Shown here: positions 11,004-24,475 of the stretch, piece after piece
Layout of the letters: every line of letters starts with the position of its first letter
How positions within the stretch are numbered: position 1 is the stretch's first letter
Assembly (NCBI RefSeq): GCF_013391105.1
Contig: NZ_CP058335.1
Coordinates: forward strand, 434,001-498,000
Length of the DNA stretch: 64,000 bases
Reading direction: 5' to 3'
From: Natronomonas salina
GTDB taxonomy: Archaea > Halobacteriota > Halobacteria > Halobacteriales > Haloarculaceae
The notes under the pieces: model-generated
The model's database searches: none
The model's input: only the letters and a program-made list of their open reading frames with translations
Told to the model about the DNA's origin: nothing
Translations under genes and position numbers: made by a program

Positions 11004-14000
11004 TCACTGGACGGTCTCCCCGTCGCGGACGTCGAAGCTCTTCTGCGTGCCGATGTCGTCGCGGTCCTGCGGGAACTCGATGTCGACGTCCATGTTGAGT
11101 TCCTCCAGCAGTTCCTCGGTCGCCGGCCGGACGGCCACCATCGAGACCTTCGTCTCCTGCATCTGCGTCTCCACGTCGTACCCCTTCGACGTGATGGCGT
11201 TGACGGAGTCGCCGATGGCGTACGGGACGTGCCCGTCGGGGTACTTGTCCTCCAGGCTCTTGCCCTTGAAGACGCCGCCCCAGTGGAACGGCAGGAACAC
11301 CTCGCCGTCGGCCGGCCGGTCCGTCACCCGGGCCTTCACGAGCACCGACCCGCGGTCCGTCGAGGAGACGACGATCAGGTCGCCGCCGTCGACGCCGAGT
11401 TCCTCCGCCCTGTTCGGCGTGATCTCGGCGTACATGTGCGGCTGCAGGTCGGCGGTGTGGATGTTCGACCGCGTCTCCGAACCGCCGCCCTGGTGTTCGA
11501 CCTGCCGGCCGGTCGTCATGATGGTGTCCAGGTCGGGCCCCGAGTCCTCCTCGTGGATGATGTCGTTGGCCCGCTGCTGTTCGACCGCGTTGTTCTGGTC
11601 GAGCCGGTAGAAGTTCTGCTGCTGGCCGTTGGCGGGCCACTCCTCGACGAGGTCCGGCCGCGGGCTCTCGATGGGCTCGCGGTGGACCGGCACCTTGTCG
11701 AGGAAGCTCCAGACGACCGCCCGCGCCCGGCCGCGCCCGGTCGGCGCGTCGGGCTGGGCGAAGTCGTACTGCTCGTAGAACGACGGATCGACCCCGCCGG
11801 CGATCTTGTCCTCGAGGTAGGCGTCGAACTCCGGGCTCCCCGTCTCCGGATTGGCCAGCGCCTGCGCGGCGGTGTACACCGAGCGCTGGTTGTCGAGCGC
11901 GTGCTGCTGGGGAATCGTCAGCTCGTCGGGCTGGACGTCCTGCGTCGGGTCGAGCAGGCTCTGCGGCGGCGTCGTCTTCCAGCCCGGGTACTCCGGGACG
12001 CCGTGGATCTGGCCGTCCGCGGCGGTGTCGTTCGAGTCGGCCCACTCCGGCTGGTACGGCGCCCGGAGGAGGTTCAGCGCCTCCTCCTGGCTGTCGTACC
12101 GGTCGGAGTTGACGGTCTCCTGGAACGGGTAGTCGTCGTCGGTGGGCATCTCGTCCCACTCCTCCGGCGTCGGCGCCTGGACGCCCCAGCGGGCCCGGAA
12201 GTCCTGGCCCCCGTCGTTGGGGTCGAGGTCGTCGTTCCAGATGATCGGCGTCCCCGGGTGGTCCTCGCCCCAGCAGGGCCAGGGGAGCATCCAGTACTCG
12301 CCCGCGACGGGCGTCCCTTCCGCGCCCTTCAGGTCCTCGTTCGAGAACGCGTAGTCGTACTCCAGGTGCTGCTGGAGCCGCTCGGGGGTCTGCCGGTAGC
12401 CGATGGTGTTCGTCCCGAGGTTGAACTCCCGGATGACGTTCTCGTAGGTCGACTTCCCGTTGTACAGCTCCGGGCCGGCCCCCCAGTCGAAGTGCTCGCC
12501 GAATCCGAGCGCGTCCGCCAGCTCCTGCATGATCTGCAGGTCCGGCTTCGAGTTGTGCGCGGGCTTGGCGACCGGCTCCGACCACTGGACGGAACGGTTC
12601 GTGTTCGTCAGCGAGCGGTAATGTTCGTACTGGCTCGAGGCGGGCAACAGCAGGATCTCCGGGCCCTCCTCGAAGTCCGGGAGCACGCTCGCGACCGAGG
12701 GGAAGACGTCGACGACGACGAGGAGGTCGAGGTTCTCCATCCCCTCCTTCATCTGGCCCATCTCGCTGATGGAGTTCGCCGAGTGCCCCCAGAAGAACGC
12801 GATCTTCACCTGGTCGGGCTGGTAGATCGGCGTCTCCTGGTAGCGGTCCTCCTGGTCGAGGGCCGCCTCGAACCAGCGGGCCACCGTCAGCCCGTTCTGG
12901 AACATCATCGAGTTCTCCGCCGGCTCCTCCGGCCCGTGGTCGGCGTTCGGCGGCAGCGAGTCGACGTCCTCGTTGCCCTCGTAGACGGGGCTCTGGCTGA
13001 CGTACTTCTCCGGGTCCATCAGCTCGAACTTGTCGTAGAGGTCGGCGAACGACGTCGAACCGCTCGCGTGTAGGGGTTCTTGTCCCAGATGTCGGCCCAC
13101 CAGGACCAGCCGCCGGGCGTGAGCCCGTAGTAGCCTGGCAGGATGTGGCTCGCCACGGCGAGGTCGGTCGCGCCCTGAACGTTCGCGTGACCGCGCATCA
13201 CCTGGAGGCCGCCGCCGCTGCGGGCGGCGCTCCCGGAGGCGAGGCTCGTGATCGCATAGGAGCGGATGTTCTGGGTGCCGTTGTTGTGCTGGGTGCCGCC
13301 CATCGCCCACTCGATCTGGACGTGGGGGCGGTTCTCGTGGATGAGGTCGGCGATGCGCTCGATGTCCTCCTCGGAGACCCAGGTGATGTCCGAGACGGTC
13401 TCGACGTCGTACTCGTCGAGTTCCACGTCGACGTCCTCCCAGCCCTGGACGCGGTCGGCGAGCATGTTCTGGCCGCTCTCGTCGGCGTCCGTATCGAGCG
13501 CGAGGCCGTGCTTGTCGCGCAGGACCTTGACGACGCCCATCATCAGGGCGACGTCGGTGCCCGGCCGGAACCGCATGTACTCGTCGGCGTGGGCCGACGT
13601 CTTCGTGAACCTGGGGTCCAGGCTCAGGATGGTCCCGCCGCGCTTCTGGCCCTCGAGGATGTGCTGCATCGCGATGGGGTGAGCCTCGGCGGGGTTCTGC
13701 CCGATGATGATGTTCAGATCGAAGTTCCGGTAGTCCTGGACCGTGTTGGTCATCGCGCCGTACCCCCAGGTGTTCGCCAGCCCCGTCACCGTCGTCGAGT
13801 GACAGATGCGCGCCTGGTGGTCGACGTTGTTCGTACCCATGAACGCCGCCAGCTTCCGGATGGCGTACGCCTCCTCGTTGGAGTGGTGGGCGCTGCCCAG
13901 GAGCATGACGCTCTCGCGGCTGTGCTCCTCCCAGACCCGCTCTATCTCGCCGGAGAGCAGGTCGTAGGAGGCGTCCCACGAGAGCTTCTCCCAGTCGCCG

Positions 14001-14350
14001 TCCCGGCGGATCATCGGGTGTTTGAGCCGCTTCTCGGAGTGCTCCGTCTCGTAGATGCCCGCCCCCTTCGAGCAGAGCGAGCCGGCGTTGATCGGATGTT
14101 CCTCCCAGGGTTCCATCCCGACGAAGGAGTCCCCGACGCGCTCGCCGTGGAACCCGCAACCGACCGAGCAGTAGTTGCAGATGGTCTTCGTCAACTCTCC
14201 CTCGGTGTCGGTCCCGTCTACCTGTTCCTCACCGTCTTGAGCGAGCGTGTGCCCGGCGGCACCGCCGCCCAGGGCGACGGTCCCGGCGAGGGCGCTCGCC
14301 TTCATGAACGACCTCCGGTCGAGGTCGAGTGATACTGGTTCGGTGCTCAT
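11004..14350 (-). pseudogene. Formate dehydrogenase alpha (bis-MGD catalytic) subunit, frameshifted
   Basis: A Tat-exported FdnG-type Mo/W enzyme of about 1115 residues. The N-terminus has a Tat motif (RRSFMKASALAG), then the [4Fe-4S] ligands (CNYCSVGC ... GSLCSKG) and the active-site segment VDHQARICHSTTVTGL. There Cys stands at the position of the FdnG selenocysteine, followed by GYGAMTN and AEAHPIA. The frame runs from 14350 to about 13070, residue 428 (DKNPYT). It continues in another frame from about 13067 (ASGSTSFADLYDKFEL) to 11004. A single missing base or two extra bases breaks it. Both halves are well preserved, so this is either a very recent inactivation or a sequencing error. Confidence 0.9.
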
Positions 14351-14523: not shown

Positions 14524-16668
14524 ATGAACGTAGGGGCATTCGTGTGTTCGTGCGGGGGGTCCTGCGACGTGGACCTCGAGACGGCCCGAGACGGCGTCAG
14601 GGACGTGGAGGTCGTCGCCTCCTCGGAACTGCTCTGCCGGGACGGGCTCCCGGCGATGGAGAAGGTCGTCGACGAGTACGACCTCGACCAGCTGGTCGTC
14701 ACGGCGCCCGACGCGGGGTGTCAGGCGACCTTCGACGACGTGCTCGACCGCAAGGGCCTGCACCCGGACGCGGCGGCGTACGTCGACCACCGCGAGAGCG
14801 CCGCCTGGGTCCACGACGCCGCCGAAGCCACCGACAAGACCGCCAGACTGCTGAACGCCGAGGTCGCGGGCCTGAAGGAGGAGCCGGTCTCCCGGACCAT
14901 CGAGCGGGACGCCGGAGACAGCGTCGCCGTCGTCGGCGACCCCGAGACCGCCGCGGCACTTTCCGACTCCGCCGACGTGACCCTCGTCGCGGACGGCGAG
15001 GAGTACGCCGGCGCCGACGCGGACCTCGACGACGTCGCGTTCGCCCGCGGCGAGGTCGTCGCCGTCGAGGGCTCCTTCGGCGACTTCGAGGTGACGCTCG
15101 CCTCGCGGGTCACCGAGGACTGCATCTCCTGTCTGGACTGCGTGCGGGAGGGCCCGGAGGGCGTGACCGCCCGCCCCGTCCAGATCCCCGCCGACGCCCC
15201 GGACGGGGAGTGGACCGACGTCTGCCCGACCGACGCCATCGACCTCGACGGCGTCACCCGCACCCTGGCGTTCGACCAGGTCGTCTATCCAGGGGGGACC
15301 GCCCCCGCGCGCGGCGGCCAGATGGGATTCTACACCGGACCGGTCGACGCCGGCACCGTCGCCGCCGTCGAGTCGCTGCTCGGCGGCGTCGAGAAGCCGG
15401 CCCACCTCGACCTCGACATGGAGGTCTGCGCGGCGGGCGCCTCCTCCCAGGAGGGCTGTACGGCCTGCGTGGACGCCTGCCCCCACGAGGCGGTGTCCCG
15501 GCCCGCCATCGACGAGGTCGAGTTCGACCTGGCCGCCTGCCAGGACTGCGGCGCCTGCACCTCGGCGTGTCCCACCGGCGCCACCCGGCTCCGGGACCCC
15601 TCCAACGAGCGGATCGCCCGCGAGGTCGAGGCGCTGCTCACCAGCGAGGCGGACGACGGCGGCTGGCTGTTCTCCCGCGGCACCGACGGCATCGAGACGG
15701 AGGTCGTCGCCTTCGTCTGCTCGGAGCGGGCGGCCGACCGCCTCCGGGAGTACGGCCGGCGGGCCCGTCGGGACGACGATATCTCCTACCCGCCGATCCT
15801 CCCGGTCCGGGTCAACTGTACGGACACCGTCGGCGAGGCCCACGTGATGCACGCGCTCGCGGCCGGCGCCGACGGCGTCGCGGTCGTCGGCTGCGGCGAC
15901 AGCTGTCTCCACTCCGGCCCCGACCCGAAGGCCGAACTCGTCGAGCGACTGGACCGCGCGACCGCCGACCTCGGACTCGGGGAGCGCGTGACCTTCCTCG
16001 CACCCGGCCCCTCACCGGAGCCGTTCTGCGCGGACCTGGAGTCGTTCGTCGACGGCCTCGAGGATTCGCCCATCCCGTCCGGGGAACACGAGGCGACCGG
16101 CACCATCGACGACCCCGACCGCGAGAACGACCCGTTCGACTCCCACGCCTGGACGCTGGAGTCCGTCCGGGCGCTGCTCGAGCACGTCGAGCCAGAACGG
16201 GAGGTGATCCGCGGGCTGAAGGACTTCGGCCTGATGGAGGTCTCCGACGCCTGCAACCTGACGCCGACCTGCACGAACCTCTGTCCGACCGGCGCCATCC
16301 AGCGGACCGACGACGGCGACCTGCTGTTCAACCACGAGCGCTGCGTCAACTGCGAGCTCTGCGAGGAGGGCTGCCCCGAGACGGCCATCACGATGCGCCA
16401 GGGGCTCGACCTCTCGCTGCTGCCCGAGAACCGCACGGCCGAGGAGGCTCCCGAACAGGGCCCGGCCTGGTCCCGCGTCTACGAGGGGGAGATGGCCGAG
16501 TGCGTCCGCTGCGGGGACCCGTTCACCTCGCAGGGGTCGGTCGACAAGGTCCGCGCGGAGGTCGGCGACGTCGTCGAGGGCATCGCGCCCGACGCCTCCC
16601 ACTCGGTCTTCGAGTACTGCGGGGACTGCCGCTCGAGGCTGCTGTTCGAGGGAGGTGAGAAGCGATGA
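14524..16668 (+). CDS. HdrA/MvhD-like multi-domain polyferredoxin
   Basis: 714 residues. The N-terminus (AFVCSCGGSC) resembles HdrA, but no FAD-binding core follows. Ferredoxin-type clusters occur at ~200-240 (CISCLDC ... CPTDAI) and ~305-355 (CTACVDACPHEA, CQDCGACTSACPTGA). An MvhD-like domain lies at ~395-465 (VVAFVCSERAADRLREYG ... VNCTDTVGEA ... GADGVAVVGCGDSCLH). A last ferredoxin pair lies at ~575-620 (CTNLCPTGAI, CVNCELCEEGCPETAI), followed by CxxC pairs. There is no Tat signal, so it acts in the cytoplasm. Divergent from fdh and coupled to a TorD chaperone by ATGA. It is probably an electron-transfer hub for Mo/W enzymes; partners unknown. Confidence 0.82.
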   Translation: MNVGAFVCSCGGSCDVDLETARDGVRDVEVVASSELLCRDGLPAMEKVVDEYDLDQLVVTAPDAGCQATFDDVLDRKGLHPDAAAYVDHRESAAWVHDAAEATDKTARLLNAEVAGLKEEPVSRTIERDAGDSVAVVGDPETAAALSDSADVTLVADGEEYAGADADLDDVAFARGEVVAVEGSFGDFEVTLASRVTEDCISCLDCVREGPEGVTARPVQIPADAPDGEWTDVCPTDAIDLDGVTRTLAFDQVVYPGGTAPARGGQMGFYTGPVDAGTVAAVESLLGGVEKPAHLDLDMEVCAAGASSQEGCTACVDACPHEAVSRPAIDEVEFDLAACQDCGACTSACPTGATRLRDPSNERIAREVEALLTSEADDGGWLFSRGTDGIETEVVAFVCSERAADRLREYGRRARRDDDISYPPILPVRVNCTDTVGEAHVMHALAAGADGVAVVGCGDSCLHSGPDPKAELVERLDRATADLGLGERVTFLAPGPSPEPFCADLESFVDGLEDSPIPSGEHEATGTIDDPDRENDPFDSHAWTLESVRALLEHVEPEREVIRGLKDFGLMEVSDACNLTPTCTNLCPTGAIQRTDDGDLLFNHERCVNCELCEEGCPETAITMRQGLDLSLLPENRTAEEAPEQGPAWSRVYEGEMAECVRCGDPFTSQGSVDKVRAEVGDVVEGIAPDASHSVFEYCGDCRSRLLFEGGEKR

Positions 16669-17312
16669 ACGACGCCGAGATCTACGAGGCGCGCCTGGAG
16701 ATCGTCGACTTCCTCGTCGAGGTGTTCTACGACGCACCGAGCGAGGCGTTCGTCGACCGCCTGCTCTCCGACGACCTGCGGGTCCCCGAGGGCGAGGTCA
16801 ACGACCGCATGGACCGGGGCTTCCGGCGGCTGGAGCGGTTCGTCGACGCGAACCGCGGCCGCGACCCCGAGACCGTGGCGACCGAACTCGGCCGTGAGTA
16901 CACCCGGCTGTTCGTGGGGCCGCGACCGCCGGTGCTCCCCCACGAGACCTACTACCGGGAGGACACGGAACTCATCGGCGAGGGGCTCGCCGAGGTCGAG
17001 GCGTCCTACTCGGCGGCCGGGTGGGCGCCACCCGAGGACTACCCCGAGGAGAACGACTTCATCGCCGTCGAACTTGCGTTCCTGCGGAACCTGATCGACC
17101 GGCAGCGCACCGGCCACGAGGAGACCTTCGGCTTCGAGCGGGTGTTCCTGGACGAGCACCTCCTCGAGTGGTACGAGGCGTTCCTCGACGACCTCGAGGA
17201 CGAACTCGACCCCGACGAGGCGGAGGCGGACCTCTTCCTGGCCGCCGGGGAGGTCTTCGCCGGCCTCGTCGAGTTCGAGGACGAGATCGTCGCCCAGCAG
17301 GTCCCGTCGTGA
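16665..17312 (+). CDS. TorD/DmsD-family molybdoenzyme chaperone
   Basis: A 215-residue all-helical protein of the TorD/NarJ family. It keeps the diagnostic YTRLFVGPRPPVLPHETYYR segment, close to the family's F.GPG...PP.ES.Y motif, and the E..F...HL..W block (FERVFLDEHLLEWYEAF). Such proteins bind the Tat signal of Mo/W enzymes and hold them until cofactor is loaded. The FdhA Tat precursor encoded on the other strand is the obvious client. ATGA overlap with the preceding gene. Confidence 0.9.
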   Translation: MNDAEIYEARLEIVDFLVEVFYDAPSEAFVDRLLSDDLRVPEGEVNDRMDRGFRRLERFVDANRGRDPETVATELGREYTRLFVGPRPPVLPHETYYREDTELIGEGLAEVEASYSAAGWAPPEDYPEENDFIAVELAFLRNLIDRQRTGHEETFGFERVFLDEHLLEWYEAFLDDLEDELDPDEAEADLFLAAGEVFAGLVEFEDEIVAQQVPS

Positions 17313-20292: not shown

Positions 20293-21021
20293 TTACTCCA
20301 GGTCCCAGCCCGCCTTCTCGGCGGCCTCCTCGAGGGGGAGGAACTCCCAGTCCTCCGGGGCCCAGGACTCCTCGCCCTCGCAGCCGACGAGCACGAACCG
20401 CTCGGCGTAGAACATCGACCGCGGGCCGACGTCCGCGAGCCGCTCGCGCGGCCCCATTCCGGTCCCGTTGAAGAAGTCCGCGTCGATGGTGTGCTCGCGC
20501 TGGAACTTCGTGATGACGTGGGCCGGGACGTCGCCGACGATGCCGATCCAGTCGCTCCACCCCGAGGCGTCGTTGAACGCGTAGGCGGGCTCCGAGAGCC
20601 GCTTTGCGGCCTCGTAGGTCAGCGCCAGCGTCATGTCGTCCGCGTCGCCGCCGTGCGGCCCGGAGGCCTCCGGCTCCTCAGCGGCCTCGGTCCCTGTCGC
20701 TCCGTCACTCCCTTCCTCGCCCTCCGCTCCCTCCCCCGGCCCGGCGCCCGCACCGCCGCTCTCCTTCGGGATACCGACGGGCAGGTCCTTGGCTTCGCGC
20801 GGGACGTGTGGCACGCGGTCCGACGCCGGCTGGGCGCCGCCACCGCCGTTCGTGTCGGCGTCCGGGGTGGCCTCCACGGAGACGTCGTCGGCGGCCTCGT
20901 CGTCGGGCGCCGCTTCGTCCTCGGGGTCGCCCTCGCCGCGCCAGAACCAGTCGCCGCGGTTCGGTCGTTCTTCGGGCGGTTCCTCCGTCTCGACGTCGTC
21001 GAGGTCGATCCTGTCTGTCAT
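20293..21021 (-). CDS. Acidic-linker protein with C-terminal DUF7124-like domain, coupled to AOR-like gene
   Basis: 242 residues. The first 35 hold the motif RPNRGDWFWRGEGDPED, then an acidic Gly/Ala/Glu linker to about residue 125. The C-terminal ~110 residues (from MTLALTYEAAKRL) match the whole 133-residue protein encoded at 35604-36005. Both share (S/T)L.L..E....L, W...(I/V)GIV-like strands, (V/L).TKF.R.(H/N), a second F.ERFV/TDRFVF strand, and an A...AGW.L end. The ATG overlaps the AOR-like stop. I link the family to DUF7124 from memory; function unknown. Confidence 0.75.
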   Translation of the reverse strand: MTDRIDLDDVETEEPPEERPNRGDWFWRGEGDPEDEAAPDDEAADDVSVEATPDADTNGGGGAQPASDRVPHVPREAKDLPVGIPKESGGAGAGPGEGAEGEEGSDGATGTEAAEEPEASGPHGGDADDMTLALTYEAAKRLSEPAYAFNDASGWSDWIGIVGDVPAHVITKFQREHTIDADFFNGTGMGPRERLADVGPRSMFYAERFVLVGCEGEESWAPEDWEFLPLEEAAEKAGWDLE

Positions 21022-22748
21022 GGTTCTGCGGGTGCGTCGACCACTGGCGTCTCGTCGTCGGCGATCTCCAGGAGGTCGAGGCGGTCGAGCGTCGCCCGGG
21101 ACGGAATTCCCTCGTCGCTCCACCCCCGGGACGCGTAGTACCGGGTGAGCGTGGCCTCGAAGTCGACGGCCAGGTCGTCCGGGTCGATGGCCGCGGGCAG
21201 GGCGTCGTCGTCGCGGGCGAACCCTTCCCGGACGTTGAACAGCCGGATCAGGTTCCAGATGCGCTCGCCGGTCGCCCCGAGGTCGCCGTGTCGGGCGCCG
21301 ACGGCGTCCAGCCACTCGGCTCCGTCGTCGGCCAGCACCTCGCCGACGAAGTCGTCGGCGACGAGGCTCCACCGGACGGCGCGGGTGTCCTGGGCGGCGA
21401 CGACCGCCGCGACGGTCCGGTCGGCGGACCAGGGGCCGTCGAAGGCCTCCTCCTCGACCGGCCGGGCCCGCCGGTGGCAGGCGCCGCGGTCGCTGGTCGC
21501 GTACGCGAGCGCCATGCTCGCCGACCCGCGCGGGTCGTAGGCCGGCAGCGACATCGCCTTCACCGACGGGATGACGTCCTCGCCGCCGCGGCGCTCCGCG
21601 GCGACGGCGACGCCGTCGGCCAGGTCGTCGCCGAGCCCGGGCTCGCGGTCGGCCACTGCGGCGAGCAACTCGCGAGCGCCCTCGGGGTCGCCGAACTCGA
21701 CGCCGGCGTCGATGCGGCCTTCCTCGCTGGCCCGGGCGGCCCACGCGACGGCGTTGCCCCCCGAGATGAGGTCCATCCCGAGGCGGTTGCACAGTTCGCC
21801 GAGTTCGGCAACCGCGTCGAAGTCGTCGAGGGCCAGCCCCGCGCCGAGCGTCATCGCCGTCGCGCCGCGGGGGACGGACTCCCCCTCGGCGGTCTCCACG
21901 CGGAAGCCGCCCGGTAACGGCCCGTCGTGCTCCCGCTCGATGGCCCGCTCCCGGACCGCGCCGACGCCGACGTCCTCGGTACCGTCGAACCCCCGCTGGC
22001 TCCACCCCCTGGCCGCGAGCACGCCGGTCGCGTCCGCGAAGTCGACGGTCTCGACGGTCCCGGAGGCGCGTTGCCACCGGCCCGTGTCGTCCTGCCGGTA
22101 CCGCTCGGCGTACCGCTCGCGGAGGTCCGCCAGGGCGTCCGGCGGCTCGCCCCGGGCGACGACGGCCTTCAGCCGCTTCGACCCCATCACGGCGCCCGCG
22201 CCGCCGCGTCCGGCGTGGTGGTCGGCCTCGTCGGAGGCGATGGTCGCGTAGGCGACCTGCGACTCGCCGGCCGGGCCGATGCAGGCGACGGCGCCGTCGG
22301 TCGCACGGGCGGTCGCCACGGCATCCTCGCCCCAGGTCTCTGCGCGCTCGATGCGGGCCGTCCCGTCCTCGACCACCAGCCGCACCGGCTCGTCGGCCGC
22401 GCCCGTCACGAGGAGCCCGAGGTTGTCGCCGAGGGCGCCGGCCAGCCGACGGGGGAACTCCCCGCCCGCGTAGGAGTCCAGGAACGCCCCGGTCAACGGC
22501 GACTTGGTGACCGCGGCGTAGCGCGTCTCGCCCGGCAGTAGCCCCGAGACGGGCCCGAGCGCGAACATGAGGGCGTTCTCCGGTCCCAGGGGATCGGCCC
22601 CCGGGTCGAGCTCCTCGTACAGGTACCGAGCGCCGAGGCCCTTCCCGCCGAGGTAGCGTCGCCGCCACTCCTCGGGGACGCGCTCGCTCTCGACGTCGCG
22701 CGACGAGAGGTCGACCCGGAGCATCCGGTCGGGGGCGCGGCGTTCCAT
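21018..22748 (-). CDS. Aldehyde:ferredoxin oxidoreductase-family protein lacking Fe-S ligands
   Basis: 576 residues across the AOR fold: N-terminal pterin-binding domain (YLGGKGLGARYLYEEL, TKSPLTGAFLDSYAGG, HHAGRGGAGAVMGSKRLKAV), then ELCNRLGMDLIS and DRGACHRRA. Tungsten-pterin contacts look retained. However, the CxxCxxxC segment expected at about residues 285-300 and the late Cys ligand (expected near TRAVRWSLV) are absent. The protein has only three Cys, none at ligand positions. A ferredoxin-dependent AOR mechanism is therefore doubtful. Likely leaderless promoter at 22775-22783. ATG at 22748; ATG at 22724 is an alternative. Confidence 0.88.
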   Translation of the reverse strand: MERRAPDRMLRVDLSSRDVESERVPEEWRRRYLGGKGLGARYLYEELDPGADPLGPENALMFALGPVSGLLPGETRYAAVTKSPLTGAFLDSYAGGEFPRRLAGALGDNLGLLVTGAADEPVRLVVEDGTARIERAETWGEDAVATARATDGAVACIGPAGESQVAYATIASDEADHHAGRGGAGAVMGSKRLKAVVARGEPPDALADLRERYAERYRQDDTGRWQRASGTVETVDFADATGVLAARGWSQRGFDGTEDVGVGAVRERAIEREHDGPLPGGFRVETAEGESVPRGATAMTLGAGLALDDFDAVAELGELCNRLGMDLISGGNAVAWAARASEEGRIDAGVEFGDPEGARELLAAVADREPGLGDDLADGVAVAAERRGGEDVIPSVKAMSLPAYDPRGSASMALAYATSDRGACHRRARPVEEEAFDGPWSADRTVAAVVAAQDTRAVRWSLVADDFVGEVLADDGAEWLDAVGARHGDLGATGERIWNLIRLFNVREGFARDDDALPAAIDPDDLAVDFEATLTRYYASRGWSDEGIPSRATLDRLDLLEIADDETPVVDAPAEP

Positions 22749-22774: not shown

Positions 22775-22783
22775 GATAAAGGT
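22775..22783 (-). promoter_or_regulatory. TATA box of the AOR-like operon
   Basis: Minus-strand CCTTTATCG lies about 30 nt before the ATG at 22748. Confidence 0.45.
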
Positions 22784-22843: not shown

Positions 22844-23443
22844 ATGCGCGCAGGGGTCGTCATCGCCGGCGGGCGGTCGACGCGGTTCGGCGACGCCGAC
22901 AAGGCCGTCGCCCCGCTGGCCGGGACGCCGATGATCCGGCGGGTCGCCGACCGGCTGGTCGACGTCGTCGACCTGCTGGTGGTCAACTGCCGGCGCGACC
23001 AGCGGACGGCCATCGAGGACGCCCTCGGGGGCTACCCGCTCTCGGTCCGGTTCGCACTCGACCCGACCGCCGACGAGGGCCCGATGTCCGGCATCCGGAC
23101 CGGGCTCCGGGAAGCCGAGTCGGCGGGGGCCAAGTACGCAGCCGTCGTGGCCTGCGACATGCCCTTCGTCGAGCCGTCGTTCCTCGAGGAACTGTTCGAA
23201 CGAGCGGCAGGCCACGACGCCGCCGTGCCGCGACCCGACGAGTGGTTCCAGACGACGCAGGCGGTCTACCGCGCCGAGCCGATGGCCGACGCCTGCGAGG
23301 CGGCTCTGGCGAACGGCGAGGGGAAGATCATCGCGCCGCTGTTCGAGCTGGACTACGTCGTCGTCGAGGACGCCCCCGAGGGGACGTTCCGAAACGTGAA
23401 CACGCGGGCGGAGCTCGAGACCGCCGAAGCGGAGTTCAGCTGA
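22844..23443 (+). CDS. mobA: Molybdenum cofactor guanylyltransferase MobA
   Basis: A 199-residue NTP-transferase that adds GMP to Mo/W-molybdopterin to make the MGD cofactor needed by formate dehydrogenase. It keeps the nucleotide-binding loop VVIAGGRSTRFG..DKA, the Mg2+-binding VACDMPF, and the late GTFRNVNTRAEL. Divergent from the AOR-like gene. Its 3' end overlaps yqeC by 8 nt on the opposite strand. Confidence 0.92.
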   Translation: MRAGVVIAGGRSTRFGDADKAVAPLAGTPMIRRVADRLVDVVDLLVVNCRRDQRTAIEDALGGYPLSVRFALDPTADEGPMSGIRTGLREAESAGAKYAAVVACDMPFVEPSFLEELFERAAGHDAAVPRPDEWFQTTQAVYRAEPMADACEAALANGEGKIIAPLFELDYVVVEDAPEGTFRNVNTRAELETAEAEFS

Positions 23444-24158
23444 CCACGTCGACCAGTTCGCCGCGGTCCATCCGGGTAAGCGCGACGCGGTCGACGGCGG
23501 TCGTCCGTTCGAGAATGCCGTCCGCGATCTCGCGGGCAGTTCGCCGGAGCGACTCGTCGTCGACCATGTTCACCACCGGGACGACCCTGGCGTCCCGGGG
23601 GACGTCCTTCAGCCCGCCGCGTTCGTTCGCGAGGACTGCGGCGACGTCCTCGGCGGTCAGTTCGTCGCCGACCTCGATCCCGGCCACCTCGGCGACGCGC
23701 TCGGGCCGGTGGACGTGCGTGTCGTCGAGCGACTTGCCGACGACGCGCGCGCTGGCCACCGGGAGGACGGTGTCGGCGTTCCGGGGGATCTGCGGCTCGC
23801 GGTCGTCGGGCGCTTTCAGCAATCGGCTCCGCGCGCCGTCGGCCTTCACCAGCACGGCGTCGACGTCGGCGTCGGCGAGGCCTGCAATAGTCGCAGGGTC
23901 GTAGCCGAGATAGCGGTCCTCGCGCTCGCGTTCCGGAACGACGCCGAGTGGCCACTCGTCGTTCGCCGCGACGGCGCCGACCGGGTCGTCGGTTACGACC
24001 ACCCGCTCGACGTCGTCGTCGAAGATGGGGATGCGGACGCTCGCGGTGACGACGGCGCGGTCGAGCCGGCCCGCCAGCTCGTAGATTGTCGACTTCTTGC
24101 CGCCCGCGCCCACCACCGCGACCAGTCCGTCGGCCGCCAGCGCCTCGACCAGGTCCAT
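23436..24158 (-). CDS. yqeC: YqeC-family Mo hydroxylase/selenium cofactor accessory protein
   Basis: A 240-residue P-loop protein of the YqeC family. The nucleotide loop is VAVVGAGGKKSTIYELAG, followed by VLVKADGARSRLLKAP and IPRNADTVLPV, both family hallmarks. YqeC is an accessory gene of molybdenum hydroxylases and labile-selenium cofactor systems in bacteria. Its place beside mobA fits a Mo/W maturation role; selenium use is not shown here. The ATG at 24158 gives the canonical start. Confidence 0.85.
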   Translation of the reverse strand: MDLVEALAADGLVAVVGAGGKKSTIYELAGRLDRAVVTASVRIPIFDDDVERVVVTDDPVGAVAANDEWPLGVVPEREREDRYLGYDPATIAGLADADVDAVLVKADGARSRLLKAPDDREPQIPRNADTVLPVASARVVGKSLDDTHVHRPERVAEVAGIEVGDELTAEDVAAVLANERGGLKDVPRDARVVPVVNMVDDESLRRTAREIADGILERTTAVDRVALTRMDRGELVDVVS

Positions 24159-24475
24159 ACCCCCCGCTCGGACCGCGGGCGAAAAAGGGTAGCGACGGTC
24201 GAAGTCGTTCGTCAGGACACCTTCCGCCAATCGAAACAGGCCGCCTACGCGAACTACTCGTGTGAATCGCGCTAACCGGCCGGTAAACAGCCTGCACTCG
24301 CCGGTTCTGTAAACGGAGTCGAGCATCCGCGCGAGCGAAGTGAGCGCGGTTCACCGGCGGCGACCGCAGGGAGCCGTCGGCAGAGTTTTTCCCCAAGTTT
24401 TTGCGAGGAGTGGTTCCCGCAGCGCGACCCCGAGGGTCGCGCGAGGAAACCCGACGAGTAAAAAGTGGGGATTCG
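24159..24475. other. Intergenic region between yqeC and ndk
   Basis: 317 nt. It holds a transcription-termination-like stretch for ndk (see terminator entry) and a GCGAGCGAAGTGAGCG-type imperfect palindrome at 24333-24348, common in haloarchaeal spacers. I see no gene. infB, which often follows ndk in archaea, is not here. Confidence 0.5.
24422..24462 (-). terminator. Probable terminator of the L7Ae-ndk operon
   Basis: On the minus strand a T5 run (24458-24462) comes soon after the ndk stop. It is followed by a perfect 9-bp stem GCGCGACCC/GGGTCGCGC with a 3-nt loop (24422-24442). T-rich tracts are the main archaeal terminator signal. Confidence 0.45.

Follow-up and report, generated by a model that had tools for sequence, protein, structure and literature searches.

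What can a protein of the AOR family do once it has lost every cysteine that holds the [4Fe-4S] cluster? The question is raised by a gene on the minus strand (22748..21018; ATG at 22748, stop 21018-21020) of the window, the 64,000-nucleotide stretch of Natronomonas salina DNA analysed here. The gene encodes a protein of 576 aa, whose best named relative, from Natronomonas gomsonensis, is 79% identical over the full length. A Pfam profile search with this protein matched AFOR_N (E 7.8e-64) and AFOR_C (E 4.8e-79), both exceeding the cut-off. Its AlphaFold model (mean pLDDT 89.9, pTM 0.92) gave Foldseek TM-scores of 0.90 against Pyrococcus AOR (1AOR) and 0.91 against FOR and an electron-bifurcating AOR. 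The two domains and the fold that define the AOR sequence family are therefore all present. A TATA-like box (TTTATC, 22775..22780, minus strand) lies about 29 nt 5′ of the ATG, a position which suggests that the transcript may be leaderless.

Relatives 49-79% identical to the 576-aa protein were found across the haloarchaea, and 63 members of this clade were aligned to Pyrococcus AOR, whose numbering is used for the residue comparison; CxxCxxxC was scored by motif searches on unaligned sequences. The ligands C288, C291 and C295 (C288xxC291xxxC295) align to a short loop, EREHDGPLPGGF, at residues 272-284 (21897..21935, minus strand), and the fourth ligand, C494, aligns to Asp465 in 'WSLVADDF'. 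All four cysteine ligands are missing in 63 of 63 clade members. CxxCxxxC is found in none of the 63, whereas all of the sister proteins (7/7) have it, as do 4/4 haloarchaeal paralogues and 16/16 further relatives sampled from the phylum. The position of the late cysteine was at first uncertain in the pairwise alignment, and was settled as a Cys to Asp change by intermediates (VACDF in the sister, VADDF in the clade). The only cysteines of the 576-aa protein are C156, C320 and C424, of which C320 and C424 align to C337 and C447 of Pyrococcus AOR, neither of them a ligand. The first-pass annotation had reported an AOR-family protein with none of the four ligands and with three cysteines, none at a ligand site; both statements hold, and when the ligand positions were mapped on a structurally known AOR no equivalent cysteine was placed elsewhere. 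Relocated ligands were rejected, as there was no CxxCxxxC and no cysteine conserved at new ligand-like positions in the 63 sequences. With the ligands missing, the sequence excludes the known route of electrons to ferredoxin, as that annotation had anticipated.

The loss is not confined to the cluster. R294-G295-A296 (21861..21869, minus strand) stands in place of E311-Y312-E313: in all 63 clade members E311 is replaced by Arg and Y312 by Gly, and the catalytic Glu313 has become Ala, Gly or Ser. AOR enzymes have two pterin motifs, DxxGL(C/D). The first (D/N-x-x-G-x-D343) is kept as C320-N-R-L-G-M-D326 (21771..21791, minus strand; AOR C337-D338..D343). The second, which includes the late cysteine (D489-S-A-G-L-C494), is rewritten to W460-S-L-V-A-D465-D466 (21351..21371, minus strand), with the W and the first D, that is D489 to W and C494 to D, in 63/63. 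The pterin-binding domain had been described as kept; this is right in part, for the first motif with D343. The GRGG-AVMGSK motif, also noted earlier, is present as G180-R-G-G-A-G-A-V-M-G-S-K191 (22176..22211, minus strand), and AGRGGAGAVMGSK is retained in the protein. Thr243, Asp343 and His448 are retained in 63/63 and Tyr427 in 61/63, and V245 to E, I449 to R and K450 to R replacements are found in 63/63; His448 and the invariant arginines at AOR 449 and 450 lie in C424-H425-R426-R427 (21468..21479, minus strand). Four residues, Glu233, Arg294, Arg426 and Asp465 of the 576-aa protein, are invariant in the clade and not conserved elsewhere. By the alignment, then, the pterin contact on the Fe-S side (Asp489) is gone throughout the clade, and new invariant charges are found instead. 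Because the ligands, Glu313 and Asp489 are gone and the new residues are invariant, redox aldehyde oxidase activity appears unlikely for the Cys-less clade. The idea of a W-pterin enzyme short only of its electron exit is incomplete, as Glu313 and Asp489 have been lost too in 63/63.

The AOR-like reading frame is under purifying selection, with dN/dS of about 0.19-0.32 against relatives, and dozens of columns are invariant among 61 sequences of the clade. The low dN/dS and the invariant new residues together indicate that the active site was rebuilt, not decayed; a degenerate single copy was ruled out by the clade-wide conservation and dN/dS. In the AOR family, with more than 4,000 members in a 2026 classification, the tungstopterin and Fe-S ligand residues vary very little, and Glu313 is one of the tungstopterin residues named as varying little in aldehyde-oxidising members (PMC13328260), so that the Cys-less clade is a clear exception. 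With Pyrococcus furiosus AOR and FOR and other WorL proteins it shares both AOR domains, the fold (TM 0.90), the GRGG-AVMGSK motif, T243, D343, Y427 and H448; it differs from them in having no [4Fe-4S] ligands, no Glu313 or Tyr312, Trp for Asp489 and Asp for Cys494, and an FDH-linked genome context. Haloferax volcanii WOR83 (PDB 9q1t) and a WOR83-like paralogue in the window genome, L001, are haloarchaeal proteins of the same family; L001, about 32% identical to the 576-aa protein, keeps the four cysteines and E313. The 576-aa protein is thus an AOR-family member by sequence and fold in which the enzyme-defining features, the cluster ligands and Glu313, are absent.

The survey for a Cys-less clade that the first-pass annotation had proposed was positive: in the tree, all 63 members form one group with support of 100/100 on a long stem (0.74). 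The sister group consists of seven haloarchaeal L030-like proteins with four cysteines and Glu313, and a single loss of the Fe-S cluster would be the most economical reading of this topology. The sister proteins resemble the clade (45-49% identity) in having Tyr at AOR N93, His-His at R182-A183, Arg at K450 and an aromatic residue at D489, but they retain CxxCxxxC, Cys494, Y312 and E313. With the aromatic residue already at Asp489 and the His-His pair, these proteins (L113-L119) look like an intermediate stage. The Cys-less protein is present in 112 of 213 haloarchaeal genomes, about half of a sample in which completeness was 90% or more; three more genomes carry the Cys-bearing sister type only.

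The neighbours of the gene point to cofactor synthesis and to formate dehydrogenase (FDH). Divergent from it, across 95 bp, is a gene for a MobA-like molybdenum cofactor guanylyltransferase (22844..23443, plus strand; PF12804; TIGR02665 E 2e-28, under the equivalog cut-off), followed by yqeC (23436..24326, minus strand; TIGR03172, 167 bits against a cut-off of 73). At 4-10 kb from the AOR-like gene lies an FDH cluster comprising the alpha subunit of a Tat-type FDH (11004..14350, minus strand, frameshifted at about 13067-13070), a multi-ferredoxin FlpD/HdrA-like electron-transfer protein (14524..16668, plus strand) and a TorD/NarJ-type chaperone (16665..17312, plus strand; PF02613). The adjacency recurs. 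Of 40 clade loci, 25 have FDH no more than about 9 kb away, 18 have YqeC, 14 MobA, 11 TorD and 10 the ferredoxin protein; gene order varies among the loci, and three FDH architectures are involved, two of about 1100 aa (one exported, the other NuoF-associated) and one of about 720 aa. In contrast, none of these five was found within about 9 kb of the Cys-bearing sister genes (0/7), nor was any found in the 13 kb surrounding L137, the next relative.

Co-occurrence across genomes gave the same picture. Two types of YqeC were told apart by the E-value of the best match. Type 1, which is independent of SelD, is present in 112 of the 112 genomes with the Cys-less protein, and the Cys-less protein is present in 0 of the 76 genomes without type-1 YqeC (Fisher p 3e-36, ignoring the relatedness of the genomes, so that the p-values are too small, although the pattern still spans about 40 genera). 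FDH, by stricter criteria, is present in 111 of the 112, and 62 of 64 genomes with an exported FDH carry the Cys-less protein. The link of the Cys-less clade to FDH and YqeC is therefore well supported. Type-1 YqeC is found without the Cys-less AOR in 25 genomes, nearly all with FDH, so the protein is not universally required; another 25 have FDH but no type-1 YqeC. Many genomes without the FDH-linked YqeC (about 25, for example G040, G078 and G085) have an FDH of about 760-800 aa; dependence on YqeC may thus be limited to some FDH types.

A neighbour of family TIGR03172 made the selenium-dependent Mo hydroxylase trait, defined by SelD, YqeB and YqeC (Haft and Self 2008, PMC2276186), an attractive candidate, and the locus in the window resembles that trait in pairing this YqeC family with a Mo-cofactor nucleotidyltransferase. 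The candidate was rejected: the window genome gave only a sub-threshold SelD-like match, and 95 of the 112 genomes are without SelD. SelD scored above cut-off in just 21 of the 213 genomes, 17 of them among the 112, and the trait therefore does not explain the YqeC of the window. Where SelD and YqeC were listed together, SelD adjoins a distinct second YqeC, unlike the type in the window. This second type, about 40% identical, adjoins true SelD in haloarchaea apart from the FDH-linked YqeC (G146:C2:348688-350700 and similar).

FDH activity in E. coli requires FdhD, which sulfurates the FDH cofactor; halobacteria have FDH without fdhD, and which proteins insert and sulfurate the cofactor in its place was an open question in a 2023 review (PMC10609526). 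We found FdhD in 0 of 213 haloarchaeal genomes at E ≤ 1e-20 and in 0 of 97 at E ≤ 0.01, in searches whose controls were positive in 8 of 14 control genomes. FdhD/NarQ is likewise undetectable in the window genome, which is one of the 213, most of which carry FDH. The 576-aa protein has no FdhD/NarQ domain, its Pfam matches being to AOR families only; it would resemble FdhD solely in the proposed role in FDH cofactor maturation, the two sequences being unrelated. No paper tying an AOR-family protein or YqeC to FDH maturation without fdhD was found in the open-access literature. For the question left by the review (PMC10609526), concrete candidates are offered by the Cys-less clade and the YqeC that partners it.

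As the best reading of these results we lean, with modest confidence, towards an AOR-fold scaffold or carrier of the cofactor that was recruited to FDH maturation, and the Cys-less protein probably helps to mature FDH in organisms without FdhD. A scaffold or carrier is the simplest reading given that the GRGG loop on the phosphate side, His448 and the first pterin motif are kept, that MobA and YqeC are the partners, and that the client is likely to be FDH. A former AOR would have lost its redox chemistry, retained putative binding of the pterin cofactor, and been recruited with SelD-independent YqeC and MobA into the handling of the Mo/W-pterin cofactor that haloarchaeal FDHs use. It would most likely hold a bis-pterin Mo/W intermediate, a ligand suited to the AOR fold, which could be completed, sulfurated or protected while held and would then be handed to FDH, partly taking the place of the missing FdhD. 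We infer cofactor binding, the identity of the cofactor as that of FDH, and the direction of transfer. The fuller scheme, in which a former tungsten AOR acts as a Mo/W-pterin scaffold or insertase with SelD-independent YqeC and MobA in FdhD-independent maturation, is put forward tentatively, as a possibility short of an even chance. With one pterin motif of the two rewritten, the pocket may not accommodate a bis-pterin. C. difficile in which yqeC was deleted showed no clear phenotype (PMC11448449), which makes YqeC a weak guide to mechanism. The FDH-linked YqeC has no invariant cysteine and the two invariant cysteines of the AOR-like clade are both ancestral, so that a sulfur-transfer route is not evident. 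The widespread Cys-less clade, which is tied to FDH, breaks the near-invariance of AOR ligands (PMC13328260) in one coordinated event; if the scaffold or carrier reading is true, a redox enzyme family has been turned into a cofactor-handling protein.

The main rival is that the protein works in C1 or formate metabolism as an active W/Mo-pterin enzyme without Fe-S: a hydratase, an isomerase, a dismutase, or an oxidase with a direct soluble acceptor or partner protein. The pocket residues T243, D343, Y427 and H448 are kept, the new polar residues are invariant, and the operon-like FDH adjacency could mean a step that feeds or uses formate. Yet the Glu313 of aldehyde-oxidising members (PMC13328260) is lost in 63/63, and the close association with YqeC and MobA points to cofactor biosynthesis, not to a substrate pathway; given this context and the lost Glu313 and Asp489, cofactor handling is a better fit than an oxidoreductase that uses an unusual acceptor, and we regard such an enzyme as unlikely, if a serious contender. 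Lower still we rate a Mo/W-pterin store or buffer, or a regulator of FDH expression or cofactor supply, with no direct hand-over to FDH. A cofactor fold with no redox route, the MobA/YqeC context and the several FDH types would suit such a protein, but the strong preference for FDH loci and the co-occurrence with exported FDH (62/64) argue for an FDH-specific role, and no DNA-binding domain was found in the Pfam search of the 576-aa protein.

Aspartate is able to ligate one iron of some Fe-S clusters. An ordinary AOR with its cluster on non-Cys or relocated ligands, such as Asp465/Asp466, would accordingly account for the Asp found at Cys494 in 63/63, but three of the four ligand sites fall in a shortened loop that has no conserved replacement, CxxCxxxC is absent in all 63 sequences and Glu313 is lost, and we consider this reading very improbable. 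The loss of catalytic and ligand residues is also what a degenerate or non-functional remnant would show; a dN/dS of 0.19-0.32, invariance of dozens of columns across 61 sequences and retention in 112 genomes make that reading scarcely credible.

Some further observations were made on the neighbourhoods. An AOR match near YqeC in a seemingly AOR-less genome (L126) proved to be an incomplete 35% paralogue at the region edge and was discarded. FDH alpha changes frame at 13067-13070 when compared with intact homologues (L089, 1125 aa), which reflects either an error in sequencing or a genuine frameshift; a second FDH alpha copy in the window genome, at G000:C1:2003438 and about 69% identical, is uninterrupted. 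In 12 of the 40 clade loci (for example L109:13217-13876) the FDH of about 720 aa is adjoined by a conserved protein, about 200 aa long, that matched nothing in Pfam or NCBIfam and is also present at one YqeC-only locus.
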